Source: Thermodesulfobacteriaceae bacterium
GTDB lineage: Bacteria; Desulfobacterota; Thermodesulfobacteria; Thermodesulfobacteriales; Thermodesulfatatoraceae
Length of the DNA: 57,369 nt
Reading direction: 5' to 3'
Assembly: GCA_015494065.1 (NCBI GenBank)
Contig: WGCA01000019.1
Span: forward strand, 1-57,369
Shown: piece by piece, positions 13,993 to 50,494 of the stretch
Position numbering within the stretch: the stretch's first letter is position 1
Layout of the letters: the number at the start of each line of letters is the position of its first letter
Notes under the pieces: model-generated
What the model was told of the DNA's origin: nothing
Databases searched by the model: none
Seen by the model: only the letters and a program-made list of their open reading frames with translations
Translations under genes and position numbers: made by a program

Positions 13993-14100
13993 AATACTAT
14001 TTTAAAAATAATTTAAATTAGCTCTTCAACATCTGGCATTTTCGTGGTAAGTAATGCCGGAAGTTTGCGCTTTTGGCGATCAGCCTGAGAGGAGGTCATT

Positions 14101-15936
14101 ATGCCGAAATGGAACCCTGAAAGGAGATTACTTGACCACGAACATACCAAGTTTTGGCGTCATCGGTTGCAGGACGTGGAAGAACCCAACCTGATGAAAG
14201 AGATTTTCCCTTACGATGACGTCCCCCTTACGGATTTTGACCACAAATACGTAATGCCCATGCCGGCTAAAGAATACTGGATTACGGACACCACCTTCCG
14301 TGACGGCCAGCAGGCCCGTCCTCCCTATACGGTGGAACAGATTGTCACCCTCTTTGATTTTTTACACAAACTTTCCGGGCCCAAAGGGGTAATCCGGCAG
14401 GCAGAATTTTTCCTTTACACCAAAAAAGACAAAGAGGCGGTCGAGAAGTGCCTTGAGCGGGGCTATCAATTCCCGGAGGTTACCGGCTGGATCCGGGCCA
14501 AGGCTGAAGACTTGAAGCTGGTCAAGGAAATGGGCTTGAGGGAGACGGGTATCCTCACTTCTTGTTCTGATTACCACATCTTCTTGAAGCTCAAAAAGGA
14601 CCGGCGCCAAGCCTTAAATGATTATTTGGCCATCGTGAAGGCCGCTTTAGAACTTGGCATTGTGCCCCGTTGCCATTTTGAAGACGTTACCCGGGCCGAT
14701 ATCTTTGGCTTTGTGGTCCCCTTTGCGATAGAGCTCATGAAGCTGCGGGAAGAATCGGGGATCGATATCAAGATCCGCCTCTGTGACACCCTGGGGCTGG
14801 GGGTACCTTATCCTGGGGCGGCCCTTCCTAGGAGTGTGCCCAAACTGGTCCGGGTCCTCATCGAGGAGGCCGGGGTGCCCGGGGAGCTACTGGAATGGCA
14901 CGGGCACAACGATTTTTACAAGGCGGTGATCAACGCCTCTACCGCCTGGCTTTACGGTTGCGCGGCGGTGAACTGTACCCTCCTGGGTTACGGCGAAAGG
15001 ACGGGGAACACCCCCCTTGAGGCCATGATTTTTGAATATATTTCGCTTAGAGGGACGCACAACGGGGTTGATACCACGGTAATCACCGATATCGCCGATT
15101 ATTACCGCAAGGAACTGGGGGACAAGATCCCACCGAACCAGCCCTTTGTGGGCTCAGAATTTAACGCCACCAAGGCTGGTATTCATATCGACGGGCTCCT
15201 CAAAAACGAAGAGATTTACAACCCCTTCAACACCCAGAAACTACTCAAAAGGCCTATCGGGATCATCATTACGGACAAAAGCGGTACCGCCGGCATCGCT
15301 TACTGGATCAATACCCACTTTGGCCTGGAAGGGGAACAGCGCATCGATAAGCGTCACCCAGGGGTGGCCAAGATATATAAACAGATAATTAAACAATACG
15401 AGGCTGGTCGGATTACACCCATCTCCAACGAAGAGATGATGCATCTGGTCAGGCGTTACATCCCCGAACTCTTTGTCTCCGAACTTGACCGCATGAAGGA
15501 AAAGGCAGCCAAGCTCTTGGTGGAACTGGTGGAAAGGCTGGTGGAGCGGCCGGAAATCCGTTCCATGGATCCCCAAAAGATCGTACCGGTGCTGCGGGAA
15601 GTCCTGGAAGAATACCCCTACATTCAGTTTATCTACGTGGTGAACCAGGAGGGCAGACGCATTACACCTTTGGTGACCCACCTGGAAGACAAGGCCCGTT
15701 ACGAACACCTCCTCAAGGAAGAAGATTATTCGGATCGTACCTGGTTCATTATGCCTTTTAAAACGGGCAAGGTATACGTTACCGATTTTTATACTTCAAA
15801 GATCACCGGTGCCCTTTGCCTTACCGTAGCCGGGCCGGTCCGAAACGAGTACGAAGAAATCGTAGGGGTCCTCGGGATGGACATCCGTTTCCAGGACCTT
15901 TTAAAGATGGAAGACGAAGAGGAGGAACAGGAATAG
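14101..15936 (+). CDS. Re-citrate-synthase-like HMGL enzyme with C-terminal Cache-like domain
   Basis: 611-residue aldolase-type (DRE-TIM) enzyme. The metal and substrate signature DTTFRDGQQ (63-71) and HGHND (near 267) place it in the isopropylmalate/homocitrate/Re-citrate synthase superfamily. Long stretches (RPPYTVEQIV, FFLYTKKDKEAV, RCHFEDVTRAD, GERTGNTPLEAM) resemble Clostridium kluyveri Re-citrate synthase as I recall it, so citrate formation from acetyl-CoA and oxaloacetate is the best guess. Homocitrate synthase is the alternative. After about residue 460 comes an extra domain whose end (YSDRTWF, GKVYVTDFY, TVAGPVRNEY, VGVLGMDI) reads like a Cache/PDC ligand sensor. No membrane segment exists, so the sensor would be cytosolic. 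The start follows GAGAGGAGG. Confidence 0.7.
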   Translation: MPKWNPERRLLDHEHTKFWRHRLQDVEEPNLMKEIFPYDDVPLTDFDHKYVMPMPAKEYWITDTTFRDGQQARPPYTVEQIVTLFDFLHKLSGPKGVIRQAEFFLYTKKDKEAVEKCLERGYQFPEVTGWIRAKAEDLKLVKEMGLRETGILTSCSDYHIFLKLKKDRRQALNDYLAIVKAALELGIVPRCHFEDVTRADIFGFVVPFAIELMKLREESGIDIKIRLCDTLGLGVPYPGAALPRSVPKLVRVLIEEAGVPGELLEWHGHNDFYKAVINASTAWLYGCAAVNCTLLGYGERTGNTPLEAMIFEYISLRGTHNGVDTTVITDIADYYRKELGDKIPPNQPFVGSEFNATKAGIHIDGLLKNEEIYNPFNTQKLLKRPIGIIITDKSGTAGIAYWINTHFGLEGEQRIDKRHPGVAKIYKQIIKQYEAGRITPISNEEMMHLVRRYIPELFVSELDRMKEKAAKLLVELVERLVERPEIRSMDPQKIVPVLREVLEEYPYIQFIYVVNQEGRRITPLVTHLEDKARYEHLLKEEDYSDRTWFIMPFKTGKVYVTDFYTSKITGALCLTVAGPVRNEYEEIVGVLGMDIRFQDLLKMEDEEEEQE

Positions 15937-38554: not shown

Positions 38555-41304
<2,750 letters not shown>

Positions 41305-41308
<4 letters not shown>

Positions 41309-43545
41309 GAGAACTCCAGCGTTACCTACACGACCTGATAGACCGGGTAATTTATCTCCAGGACATCAAGGGGGAAAACTGGCAGGGTTGCGCCCTCCTG
41401 CTCGATGAGCTCCAAAAGCTGAAAGAAGATTTTTACCAAATCTCTGAGGCCAAATGTCAGGAAAAGCTTGAAAGCTTAGAAAACCGTTTAAAAATCCTTG
41501 AAGACCGGGCCGCAGCAGCCCTTACCCCTTATGAGATCGTAAAGATTACGCGCCATCCTCAGCGGTTCACCTTGCTGGATATCCTGGAAAACGTCTACGA
41601 CTCTTACACCGAGCTCGGGGGAGAAGGGGACATCAACGTCGACCCGGCCGTAATCTGCGCCCGGGCCGTGATCTCGCGGCGGGTGGGGGACAAGGTCTTT
41701 CTCCACCAGGTGATCGTGATCGGGCACGAAAAGGGCCACGGCGAAGAATTCCGTAACGGAGGCAGTGCCAAACCCTGGGGTAACGAAAAGGCCCTGCGCT
41801 ACATGAGAGTGGCTGAAACCGAAGGGATCCCTATTCATTTCTATATTTTCACCCCTGGGGCCTACCCCATCGAAGATTATCCCGGGGCCGCCCAGCAGAT
41901 CGCAAGAAACCTCTATTTCATGAGTAAACTGAAGGTCCCCACCGTGGCCTTCATTTCCGAAGGAGGTTCTGGAGGGGCTGAAGCCATCGGCCTGGCCGAT
42001 ATCCGGCTGATGGCCTCCCGGGGCTATTATTCTGTCATCAGCCCGGAAGGGGCGGCGGCCATAGAGGGTAAACTAAAGGAAGGGGAGCGCCCCAGCCGGG
42101 AACTTTTGGAATTCTGTGCCCGGCAACTGAAGATCACCGCCGAAGATAACCTGCGTTTAGGCACCATTGATCGGATCGTTCCGGAACCTCCCTTAGGGGC
42201 CCGGCGTTACGACTATCAGTTTTTCAAGCGTCTGAGATACGAGATGATCCGGGCCACTGACGAGGTGATCCTGCGTACCAAAAGTTTAAAGGCCTTTCGC
42301 AGCTACGCCCTAAAGCGCAAGTCCGAGGAAGAGAACCCTCCTGACGAGTTCGACATTTACGTGCGCTGGGAACTTTCTGAGGTTGAGATCGAAAAGCTCC
42401 TTGACCTGCGCTCCAAGAAATACCGGGCCATGAGCCGGCACGTGCTGGGGCTTAGTAAAAGGTGTCTTAAGGATTATTTCGAAAAGACCCAGGACGTCGG
42501 CCTGCGCCTCTACCACGACCTGCGTTACGGGCTTTTGAAACAGGGCCAGCGAGTGATCCAGCGCATGATCGAGGACCTGTCTGGGGAGGGAGCGGCCTTC
42601 TTAAAACAGCTTACCGAACCCATCAAAAGTGCCTATGACCTCCTGGCCAGCAAACCCCGCCGTACCAGGGCCAAGGTGGTGGCGGAAGAGACTGCCCTCA
42701 TTGATCTCCCCGAGCTTTACGTAAGCCCCCTGGCCCTTGAAGACCGCACCGTCACCTGTCCCAACGCCGAGACCCACGGCTGCCCGGACATCTGGGTGCC
42801 AGATCTTTACGGAGAGTTTTGCGGGGTATGTCCCAACTGTGGCTATCATTTCCCCCTGGAATACCAGTGGTATTTGAGCAACATCTTTGACGCCAAAAGC
42901 GTTAAAGAATTCAACGAAGACATCGAGGCGGGAAATCCGCTGGGTTTTGAGGGTTACGATAAAAAACTGGCCCTGGCCAAGAAAAGGACGGGCCGTAATT
43001 CTGGGATTATCACCTTTCAGGCGCGCATCGGGGGTATTTCTCTTATCTGCGCCATGCTCATTGCGGATTTCAGACAGGGTACGGTGGGGGTAGCGGAAGG
43101 AGAAAAATTTATCCAGGCCTGTGACCGGGCAAGGATTACCAAACGGCCTTTTCTCGCCTTTGTACATACCACCGGCGGGATCAGGATCCACGAGGGCACG
43201 TTGGGAGTGGTGCAGATGCCCCGCTGTACTATGGCGGTGCGGGAATACATTGACGCCGGTGGTCTTTACCTGGTGGTGTATGATAACAATTCTTACGCTG
43301 GGCCGGTAGCCAGCTTTTTGGGGTGTTCGCCCTATCAGTTTGCCATCAGGTCCACCAGGATCGGTTTTGCCGGTCCGCGGGTTATCAGGGAGACCACGGG
43401 AGAAGACGTCCCGCCTGATTACCACAGTGCGGAAAACGCCTTACGGCGCGGGCATATTCAGGGGATCTGGGACAGACGGGAGCTCCGCAAGAAGCTTTAC
43501 GAGGCCTTTCTTTCCATGGGAGGCAAAAACCTTTACTATCGCTAA
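41305..43545 (+). CDS. AccA-AccD fused carboxyltransferase
   Basis: 746-aa carboxyltransferase with both crotonase-fold halves in one chain. Residues about 1-330 match AccA (EGGSGGAEAIGLAD, YYSVISPEGAAA). After a charged linker (330-480), residues about 490-746 match AccD, with a zinc ribbon (Cys near 487 and 495, then CGVCPNC) and the oxyanion stretch TTGGIRIHEG, then IGFAGPRVIRETTGE. In the zinc ribbon the first pair is CX7C instead of CX2C. The order A-D is the reverse of the eukaryote-like order. Acyl substrate is probably acetyl-CoA, but propionyl-CoA or another acyl-CoA cannot be excluded. Confidence 0.88.
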
Positions 43546-48775: not shown

Positions 48776-50494
48776 ATGAAGTCTACCGATACCAAGCCGG
48801 AAAAGTTCAAGCGTCCTTCTAACCTTAGCGAAGAACAGAAGAGGGAGATCTTGGCCAAAATCTGGGCCAAGGACCCTTCCGCTTTTACCGATGATCCCAC
48901 GCTGCAGGAAAAGATTGGCGCCAGATTAGGATGGGTGGACGCTCCGGAACGGATGCGTCCTTATATTCCGGAATTAAAGAGTTTTGCCCAGGAAATAAAA
49001 GAAAATTTCGTCCACATCGTCCACTGCGGTATGGGCGGTTCAAGCCTCTTCCCCCTGGCTCTGGCCAAAATCTTTGGCCCTGAACCAGGTTGGCCCGAAT
49101 ACATCGTACTTGACACCACGGATCCCGAAGAGATCGCCAGGGTGGAAGAGGAATGTGACCTCAAAAAGACCCTTTTTATCATCGCCAGCAAGTCTGGCAC
49201 CACCGTGGAGACCGTCTCTCAGTTCCGTTATTTTTGGGCCAAACTGGAAGGGCTCTCACAAAGTCCAGGCGCACATTTTGTGGCCTTAACGGATGAAGGT
49301 TCCCCGCTGCACCGGGAGGCGGAAGAAAAGGGCTTTCGCAAAGTATTTCTCAATCCCGCCGACGTGGGAGGTCGATACGCGGCCCTTACCTTCGTGGGGC
49401 TTTTGCCAGCCGCTTTGATGGGGCTTGAGGTTGAAAAACTTTTGACCACCGCCGAAGAAATGAAGGCCGCCTGTGCCCCGGATATTCCCTGGGAACTGAA
49501 CCCGGCGGCCTGGTTGTCAGAATATATCGCCGAACGCTTTTTCCTTGGACAGGACAAGCTCACCCTCCTGACGGATCCCCTTTTGCGCCCCTTTGCCCTC
49601 TGGGTAGAACAACTGGTGGCGGAAAGTCTGGGTAAGGAATACACCGGTGTTATCCCTATCGTGGGGGAAAGTCCTGGTTCACCCACGGTCTATGGTCCGG
49701 ACCGCATCTTTGTTTATCTGGGGCTCCGCGGCCGGCAGAATTTATATCAGCGCCTCTTTTCCGATTTGAAAGAGGCGGGTTTTCCCCTAAAGGCCTATTG
49801 GCTGGAAGACCGCTACGAGCTTGGGGCGGAATGCTTCCGTTGGGCCCTGGCGGTGGCCCTTTGTGGCGTCTGGCTAGGGCTTAACCCCTTTGATGAGCCT
49901 GACGTGATCAGGGCCAAAAAGAAGACCAAAGAAGTGCTTGAAAGCTTTCGCAAAACCGGGGAATTTCCGGTGGAGTTCTATCTGGATGATGATCTTGAGG
50001 TGGGTTTTCTTTACGCAGGGGGACTTAAAGTCCAATACCCCCGCCTGCGGGCATCGTTTAAGAAATTTATGTATGATACCCCTCCATGGGGTTACTTTGC
50101 CTTTTTGCCTTACCTGCCCTATGATCCCGAAATAGAAGAACTCTTTAACGACTTGAGGACCCTCTTCCGTGGCCGGCGTCAGTGTTCCACTATCCTTGGT
50201 TTTGGTCCCCGGTACCTCCACTCCACCGGCCAGCTCTTTAAAGGTGGGCCCCGTTCCGGGCGCTTCATCATCTTTACCCGCAAGGGACGGAGGCCGGAAC
50301 AAGAAATCCCTGGGGAAGGCTATACCTTCTGGGACCTCCAATTTGCCCAGGCCTTTGGGGACTTTCAGGCCCTTTCTGAAGATGAAAGGCCGGTGATCCA
50401 CATCCACCTTAGCGAAAACTATAAAGAGGACCTCAAAAAGTTTTATAATTTTATGGAAGTGATCACGCGTCTTACGGATACCGAAGAAGAATGA
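48776..50494 (+). CDS. pgi: glucose-6-phosphate isomerase
   Basis: 572 aa. Interconverts glucose-6-P and fructose-6-P. SIS-domain features: HCGMGGSSLFPLAL near 84, IASKSGTTVETVSQF near 142 (phosphate-binding SKSGTT), and a glutamate/lysine active-site C-terminal half. The sequence resembles the PGI part of bifunctional transaldolase/PGI proteins more than the short Bacillus type, but there is no transaldolase domain. Together with the GH57 and galT genes it supports sugar-phosphate and glycogen cycling. The stop overlaps the channel gene by four bases (ATGA). Confidence 0.87.
   Translation: MKSTDTKPEKFKRPSNLSEEQKREILAKIWAKDPSAFTDDPTLQEKIGARLGWVDAPERMRPYIPELKSFAQEIKENFVHIVHCGMGGSSLFPLALAKIFGPEPGWPEYIVLDTTDPEEIARVEEECDLKKTLFIIASKSGTTVETVSQFRYFWAKLEGLSQSPGAHFVALTDEGSPLHREAEEKGFRKVFLNPADVGGRYAALTFVGLLPAALMGLEVEKLLTTAEEMKAACAPDIPWELNPAAWLSEYIAERFFLGQDKLTLLTDPLLRPFALWVEQLVAESLGKEYTGVIPIVGESPGSPTVYGPDRIFVYLGLRGRQNLYQRLFSDLKEAGFPLKAYWLEDRYELGAECFRWALAVALCGVWLGLNPFDEPDVIRAKKKTKEVLESFRKTGEFPVEFYLDDDLEVGFLYAGGLKVQYPRLRASFKKFMYDTPPWGYFAFLPYLPYDPEIEELFNDLRTLFRGRRQCSTILGFGPRYLHSTGQLFKGGPRSGRFIIFTRKGRRPEQEIPGEGYTFWDLQFAQAFGDFQALSEDERPVIHIHLSENYKEDLKKFYNFMEVITRLTDTEEE

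Follow-up and report, generated by a model that had tools for sequence, protein, structure and literature searches.

A probable Re-citrate synthase with a cytosolic C-terminal Cache domain, a candidate ligand sensor for citrate synthesis in anaerobic bacteria

The window analysed here, a stretch of 57,369 nucleotides from a Thermodesulfobacteriaceae bacterium (contig WGCA01000019.1), contains a gene whose product joins the DRE-TIM barrel of a condensing enzyme to a Cache/PDC domain (Table 1). The gene seems to be monocistronic, with a TauE/SafE transporter gene as its 5' neighbour and a convergent RNase E/G gene on its 3' side. No membrane helix or signal peptide is present in the protein, whose N-terminus is hydrophilic and whose maximum 19-residue Kyte-Doolittle mean is 1.16, as the preliminary description had anticipated. 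A secreted or membrane protein was ruled out by the same scan, and with no hydrophobic segment the domain lacks the extracytoplasmic, membrane-flanked placement that is usual, though not strictly defining, for Cache domains. An assembly or annotation artefact fusing two genes was also ruled out, because the identical junction recurs in more than 100 independent genomes. The fusion of a DRE-TIM condensing enzyme with a Cache/PDC domain is real and conserved.

Table 1. Features of the Cache-bearing gene in window coordinates; residue numbers are those of the 611-residue product.
Feature	Position	Strand	Basis
Shine-Dalgarno sequence AGGAGGT, 4 bases 5' of the ATG	14090..14096	+	sequence
Probable Re-citrate synthase with C-terminal Cache domain, 611 aa	14101..15936	+	intact ORF, ATG; 62% identical to the S. 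aciditrophicus enzyme across 602 aa
DRE-TIM (HMGL-like) catalytic barrel, residues 61-333	14281..15099	+	Pfam HMGL-like (PF00682), 1e-32
HGHND metal/active-site motif, residues 267-271	14899..14913	+	invariant in alignment of relatives
Post-barrel helical subdomain, residues 334-458	15100..15474	+	model helices; ends of the Cache-less forms
Long helix 461-481, Cache alpha-1, unbroken continuation of the catalytic part	15481..15543	+	AlphaFold2 models
Cache/PDC core, residues 491-602	15571..15906	+	PF22673, 4.9e-15; Foldseek KinD, 1.6e-9
Predicted pocket: R546 (15736-15738), W548, F549, Y564, S566, D594 (15880-15882)	15736..15882	+	KinD alignment; conservation test
Acidic C-terminal end, residues 603-611	15907..15933	+	606-611 predicted disordered, pLDDT <50

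The barrel displays the motifs FRDGQQ (residues 66-71), HFEDVTR (192-198), HGHND (267-271) and GERTGN (298-303). Most of these positions are invariant or nearly so among 52 aligned relatives, with FRDGQQ, HGHND and most of GERTGN strictly kept. A weak HCS_D2 match (353-399) falls within the post-barrel subdomain, and the best fold match of the full-length model is SaHCS, likewise a DRE-TIM enzyme with a C-terminal regulator, whose RAM domain is replaced here by the Cache domain. The SaHCS structure was solved without the RAM domain.

The best-characterised relative, a protein of 629 residues with a computed mass of 71,766 Da, aligns without gaps and with the tail included at 62% identity (374/602). 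It can be identified with near certainty as the purified Re-citrate synthase of Syntrophus aciditrophicus (SB), which we take to be SYN_02536; the tagged recombinant enzyme, reportedly of 72.9 kDa, would fit the computed mass, and its enzymology was reportedly described by Kim et al. in 2013. The S. aciditrophicus enzyme is listed among the known Re-citrate synthases (PMC12016533). The two proteins share the barrel and the Cache tail (PF22673 at 1e-11 in the S. aciditrophicus protein), but the latter has some 25 additional residues after the Cache domain. A conserved extension of this length (..EATQIALRAEYE..) is found in Syntrophales Re-citrate synthases (L126:6584-8470 on the minus strand, L024, L026, L030, L033 and L096-L125).

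Four DRE-TIM synthases of the source genome match the sequence: the protein itself, LeuA, CimA and NifV. LeuA and CimA are both above their NCBIfam cut-offs and both have the LeuA_dimer domain; NifV, adjoining nifH, is under its cut-off, with its own family still best. The genome also encodes an NADP-isocitrate dehydrogenase. Si-citrate synthase (PF00285) was not found in this genome, which is 99.9% complete, and the same family was detected in 13 of 14 control genomes. Among 394 genomes of the phylum, the gene occurs alone in 155 and PF00285 alone in 180, while the two occur together in 45 and are both missing from 14 (odds ratio 0.023; p=5e-50, a value that shared ancestry inflates without affecting the pattern itself); in the window's own order the counts are 20/20 for the gene and 0/20 for PF00285. 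Hence the gene and Si-citrate synthase are largely mutually exclusive across the phylum. PF00285 includes methylcitrate synthase, which bears on the 45 genomes with both families. A homocitrate, citramalate or isopropylmalate synthase under a Cache regulator, in place of a citrate synthase, would agree with the top NCBIfam models, nifV and LEU1_arch, though these score far under cut-off (147 vs 463 bits). However, the LeuA, CimA and NifV roles are each already filled in the source genome, and the identity to the S. aciditrophicus enzyme and the reciprocal absence of PF00285 oppose such an assignment, which we regard as highly improbable. There is little doubt that the product is a Re-citrate synthase, an activity that we strongly infer for the 611-residue protein, and the gene very probably encodes a Re-type enzyme, the one citrate synthase detected in this organism. 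As a class, Re-citrate synthases make citrate with Re stereospecificity, require Mn2+/Co2+ and are sensitive to oxygen. The preliminary description had read the N-terminal two thirds as such an enzyme, and this assignment held: the protein sides with the known Re-citrate synthase and not with LeuA, CimA or NifV.

The same description had taken the last 150 residues for a Cache/PDC domain attached to a condensing enzyme, on the motifs YSDRTWF, GKVYVTDFY, TVAGPV and VGVLGMDI, all of which are found in the reading frame, and had proposed a structure prediction with Foldseek and a survey of the fusion across the family. Both parts of the architecture were recovered. Pfam MCP-like_PDC_1 (PF22673) matches at 496-600 (E=4.9e-15; 56.4 bits against a cut-off of 27) and dCache_1 at 5e-9. 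The PF22673 match is not due to chance, because it was obtained in 51 of 51 fusion proteins scanned and was absent from one Cache-less control. The AlphaFold2 model of the tail, built with 51 homologous tails, has a mean pLDDT of 87 and a pTM of 0.83, and its elements follow in the order long helix, further helices, Cache sheet. When the model was compared with the PDB by Foldseek, the first seven matches were chains of the KinD sensor domain (best E=1.6e-9, probability 1.00), among them 4jgp with bound pyruvate and R131A mutants. These were followed by Tlp3, CtaA, PctB and YkuI, of which Tlp3, PctB and CtaA also had a probability of 1.00. The tail sequence alone also selects KinD (5e-6). That the tail has a Cache fold is therefore well supported by sequence and structure prediction. 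LeuA_dimer (PF08502), found in LeuA and CimA of the same genome, is absent from the protein in the Pfam scan, and a LeuA_dimer or homocitrate synthase regulatory domain was thus ruled out for the tail, as was an unrelated fold.

The survey of the Re-citrate synthase family outside Clostridia detected the fusion in at least nine phyla: Thermodesulfobacteriota, Nitrospirota, Spirochaetota, Omnitrophota, Elusimicrobiota, Lentisphaerota, Armatimonadota, Margulisiibacteriota and Auribacterota. Tail-less forms are common. The Brocadia homologue belongs to the same catalytic family and is 64% identical to the window protein, but it has 463 residues, lacks the Cache domain and ends after the post-barrel helices; all 18 matches in its phylum are tail-less. 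The anammox candidate from Kuenenia is 55% identical to the Re-citrate synthase of Clostridium kluyveri (PMC8027424), likewise a member of this catalytic family. Tailed and tail-less forms number 13 and 21 in Spirochaetota, 3 and 11 in the phylum of the Lentisphaerota genome (G007), and 17 and 13 in that of the Armatimonadota genome (G008). With few exceptions the tail-less forms end at a position equivalent to residue 458-476, where Cache alpha-1 begins in the model. In the preliminary description the Cache domain stood in place of the usual LeuA-type regulatory domain; this is correct for the architecture, although many Re-citrate synthases have no C-terminal regulatory domain at all.

On the catalytic-domain tree the presence of the tail requires at least five changes, two of them forced by well-supported branches, compared with 28 for shuffled labels. 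The gains or losses of the tail, or both, were hence several but rare, and a single recent fusion event was ruled out. Barrel and tail distances are correlated (r=0.67; permutation maximum 0.20), as expected if both parts mostly travelled together. Two Spirochaetota genomes contain one Cache-bearing and one Cache-less copy each (G751, L145 and L169; G787, L144 and L170). The tail is probably dispensable for catalysis, since close tail-less relatives exist, in these two genomes beside a tailed copy. The Cache domain evolves faster than the barrel, with a mean identity of 43% versus 61%. This difference, and the commonness of Cache-less relatives that are presumably active, would suit a tail acting as a structural or oligomerisation module without ligand control, comparable to the dimerising half of LeuA_dimer; PAS and Cache domains are known dimerisers (PMC8694187).

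The conservation within the domain bears on this alternative. The wild-type and mutant KinD sequences in the tail alignment place R546 opposite R131 of KinD, which is mutated in 4jgq/4jgr. The KinD cleft binds pyruvate (PMC8534201), and KinD with a mutated arginine, named R95A in that study, binds acetate instead (PMC3831638). At five pocket positions picked from known structures (546, 548, 564, 566 and 594) the top residue has a mean frequency of 0.93, compared with 0.57 over the domain, and random position sets are rarely as conserved (p<=5e-5). In a set of 72 diverse fusions, thinned at 85% identity, W548, F549, S566 and D594 are invariant (72/72) and R546 is kept in 61. The 11 exceptions fall mainly in a Spirochaetota/Lentisphaerota branch (L061, L070, L077, L080, L081, L148, L150, L152, L153, L174 and L175), where K, H, S, C or T replaces R546 while W548, F549, S566 and D594 are retained; this subset may have a different ligand. 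The loss of R546 would also be compatible with a purely structural module. However, the most conserved residues are those that line the ligand pocket in the relatives, while a pure scaffold would be expected to preserve its core and interface instead, and the structural explanation is in our judgement unlikely. Conservation is thus much higher at the predicted pocket positions than elsewhere in the Cache domain, and this speaks for a functional ligand pocket.

As regards the class of ligand, R126, W128, Y144 and D173 of PctA have equivalents in R546, W548, Y564 and D594, the position of D146 is occupied by the invariant S566, and that of Y121 is variable. The complete dCache_1AA amino-acid sensor motif (Y121, R126, W128, Y144, D146, D173) was rejected, as four of its six residues are kept and the module is single, not double. 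This partial agreement, and the diversity of Cache ligands, would leave room for a tail that responds to something other than a small metabolite, for example a partner protein or the redox state, and links the enzyme to a complex. The nearest solved relatives found by Foldseek nevertheless hold pyruvate or amino acids in the same pocket (PMC8534201, PMC3831638), and we give a partner or redox sensor very little credence.

The reading that we favour, with a probability of roughly 70%, is that of a ligand-gated Re-citrate synthase in which the Cache domain takes the place of LeuA_dimer and has a small carboxylate or an amino acid as its ligand. We infer ligand binding, the identity of the ligand and allostery as follows. 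The enzyme would convert acetyl-CoA and oxaloacetate into citrate, which isocitrate dehydrogenase would channel to the synthesis of 2-oxoglutarate and glutamate. A single cytosolic Cache (PDC) module occupies, after the post-barrel helical subdomain, the position that LeuA_dimer has in LeuA and CimA. R546 would grip the carboxylate of the ligand, with W548, Y564, S566 and D594 lining the pocket. In receptors the alpha-1 helix of the Cache domain joins the membrane; here helix 461-481 could pass a ligand-driven shift to the lid of the barrel and to the dimer interface, so that ligand binding would alter the activity or the oligomeric state. In this way, feedback or feed-forward control would act where the oxidative TCA branch starts. 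Candidate ligands would be small carboxylates or amino acids according to the chemistry of the pocket, and glutamate, 2-oxoglutarate, pyruvate or acetate according to the logic of the pathway.

LeuA, CimA and many homocitrate synthases are controlled by end products (Leu, Ile, Lys). LeuA and CimA likewise consist of a DRE-TIM barrel followed by a C-terminal regulator, but theirs is LeuA_dimer and here it is a Cache domain. The sensor domain of Bacillus subtilis KinD (4jgo/4jgp), the best match of the tail in both sequence and fold, with the arginine of the pyruvate pocket conserved, consists of two tandem PDC modules that are extracellular and drive a kinase, whereas the window protein has a single cytosolic module on an enzyme. 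Diacid_rec, YkuI_C and the actinobacterial stand-alone dCache_1AM domains are also cytosolic, but serve transcription control or cyclic-di-nucleotide signalling and not a metabolic enzyme (PMC4822843, PMC10104139). According to Upadhyay et al., Cache domains are principally extracellular, with only two small families principally intracellular, and signal-transduction outputs are known for all Cache families but one (PMC4822843); a later survey considered the stand-alone intracellular dCache_1AM a rare repurposing (PMC10104139). In the literature searched, mostly open-access and with the original S. aciditrophicus study outside it, neither a relevant link of Cache to citrate or isopropylmalate synthase nor a description of the Cache-Re-citrate synthase architecture was found. 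The architecture is discoverable, since the Pfam match is automatic and must show in domain databases.

In many anaerobes the oxidative TCA branch begins with Re-citrate synthase, whose regulation appears to be little studied and is most likely carried by the Cache domain. We consider it rather probable that Cache, known as the chief extracellular sensor of prokaryotes, has been taken over by a central-carbon enzyme as a direct allosteric domain, unnoticed in an enzyme already purified, and that in anaerobic bacteria from many phyla it sets citrate synthesis in response to a metabolite, for instance glutamate, 2-oxoglutarate or pyruvate. If so, one class of Cache ligand could be measured by an activity assay in a soluble enzyme instead of a membrane receptor, with the natural tail-less variants as ready-made controls, and the swapping of C-terminal regulators among DRE-TIM enzymes (LeuA_dimer, RAM or none) would gain Cache as a further case.

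Other features of the source genome were observed. Positions 41305-43545 (+) of the window encode a 746-residue fusion of AccA-like (35-321) and AccD-like (507-733) carboxyltransferase halves, with a biotin-carboxylase-like gene upstream (39794-41308), all under NCBIfam cut-offs. Of the bifunctional transaldolase/isomerase family, the 572-residue product of 48776-50494 (+) resembles the glucose-6-phosphate isomerase half alone. Elsewhere in the genome (G000:C2, locus L003), a nifH-like gene, NifV and a regulator of the GAF-AAA sigma-54 type adjoin, a cluster that suggests nitrogen fixation in the source organism.
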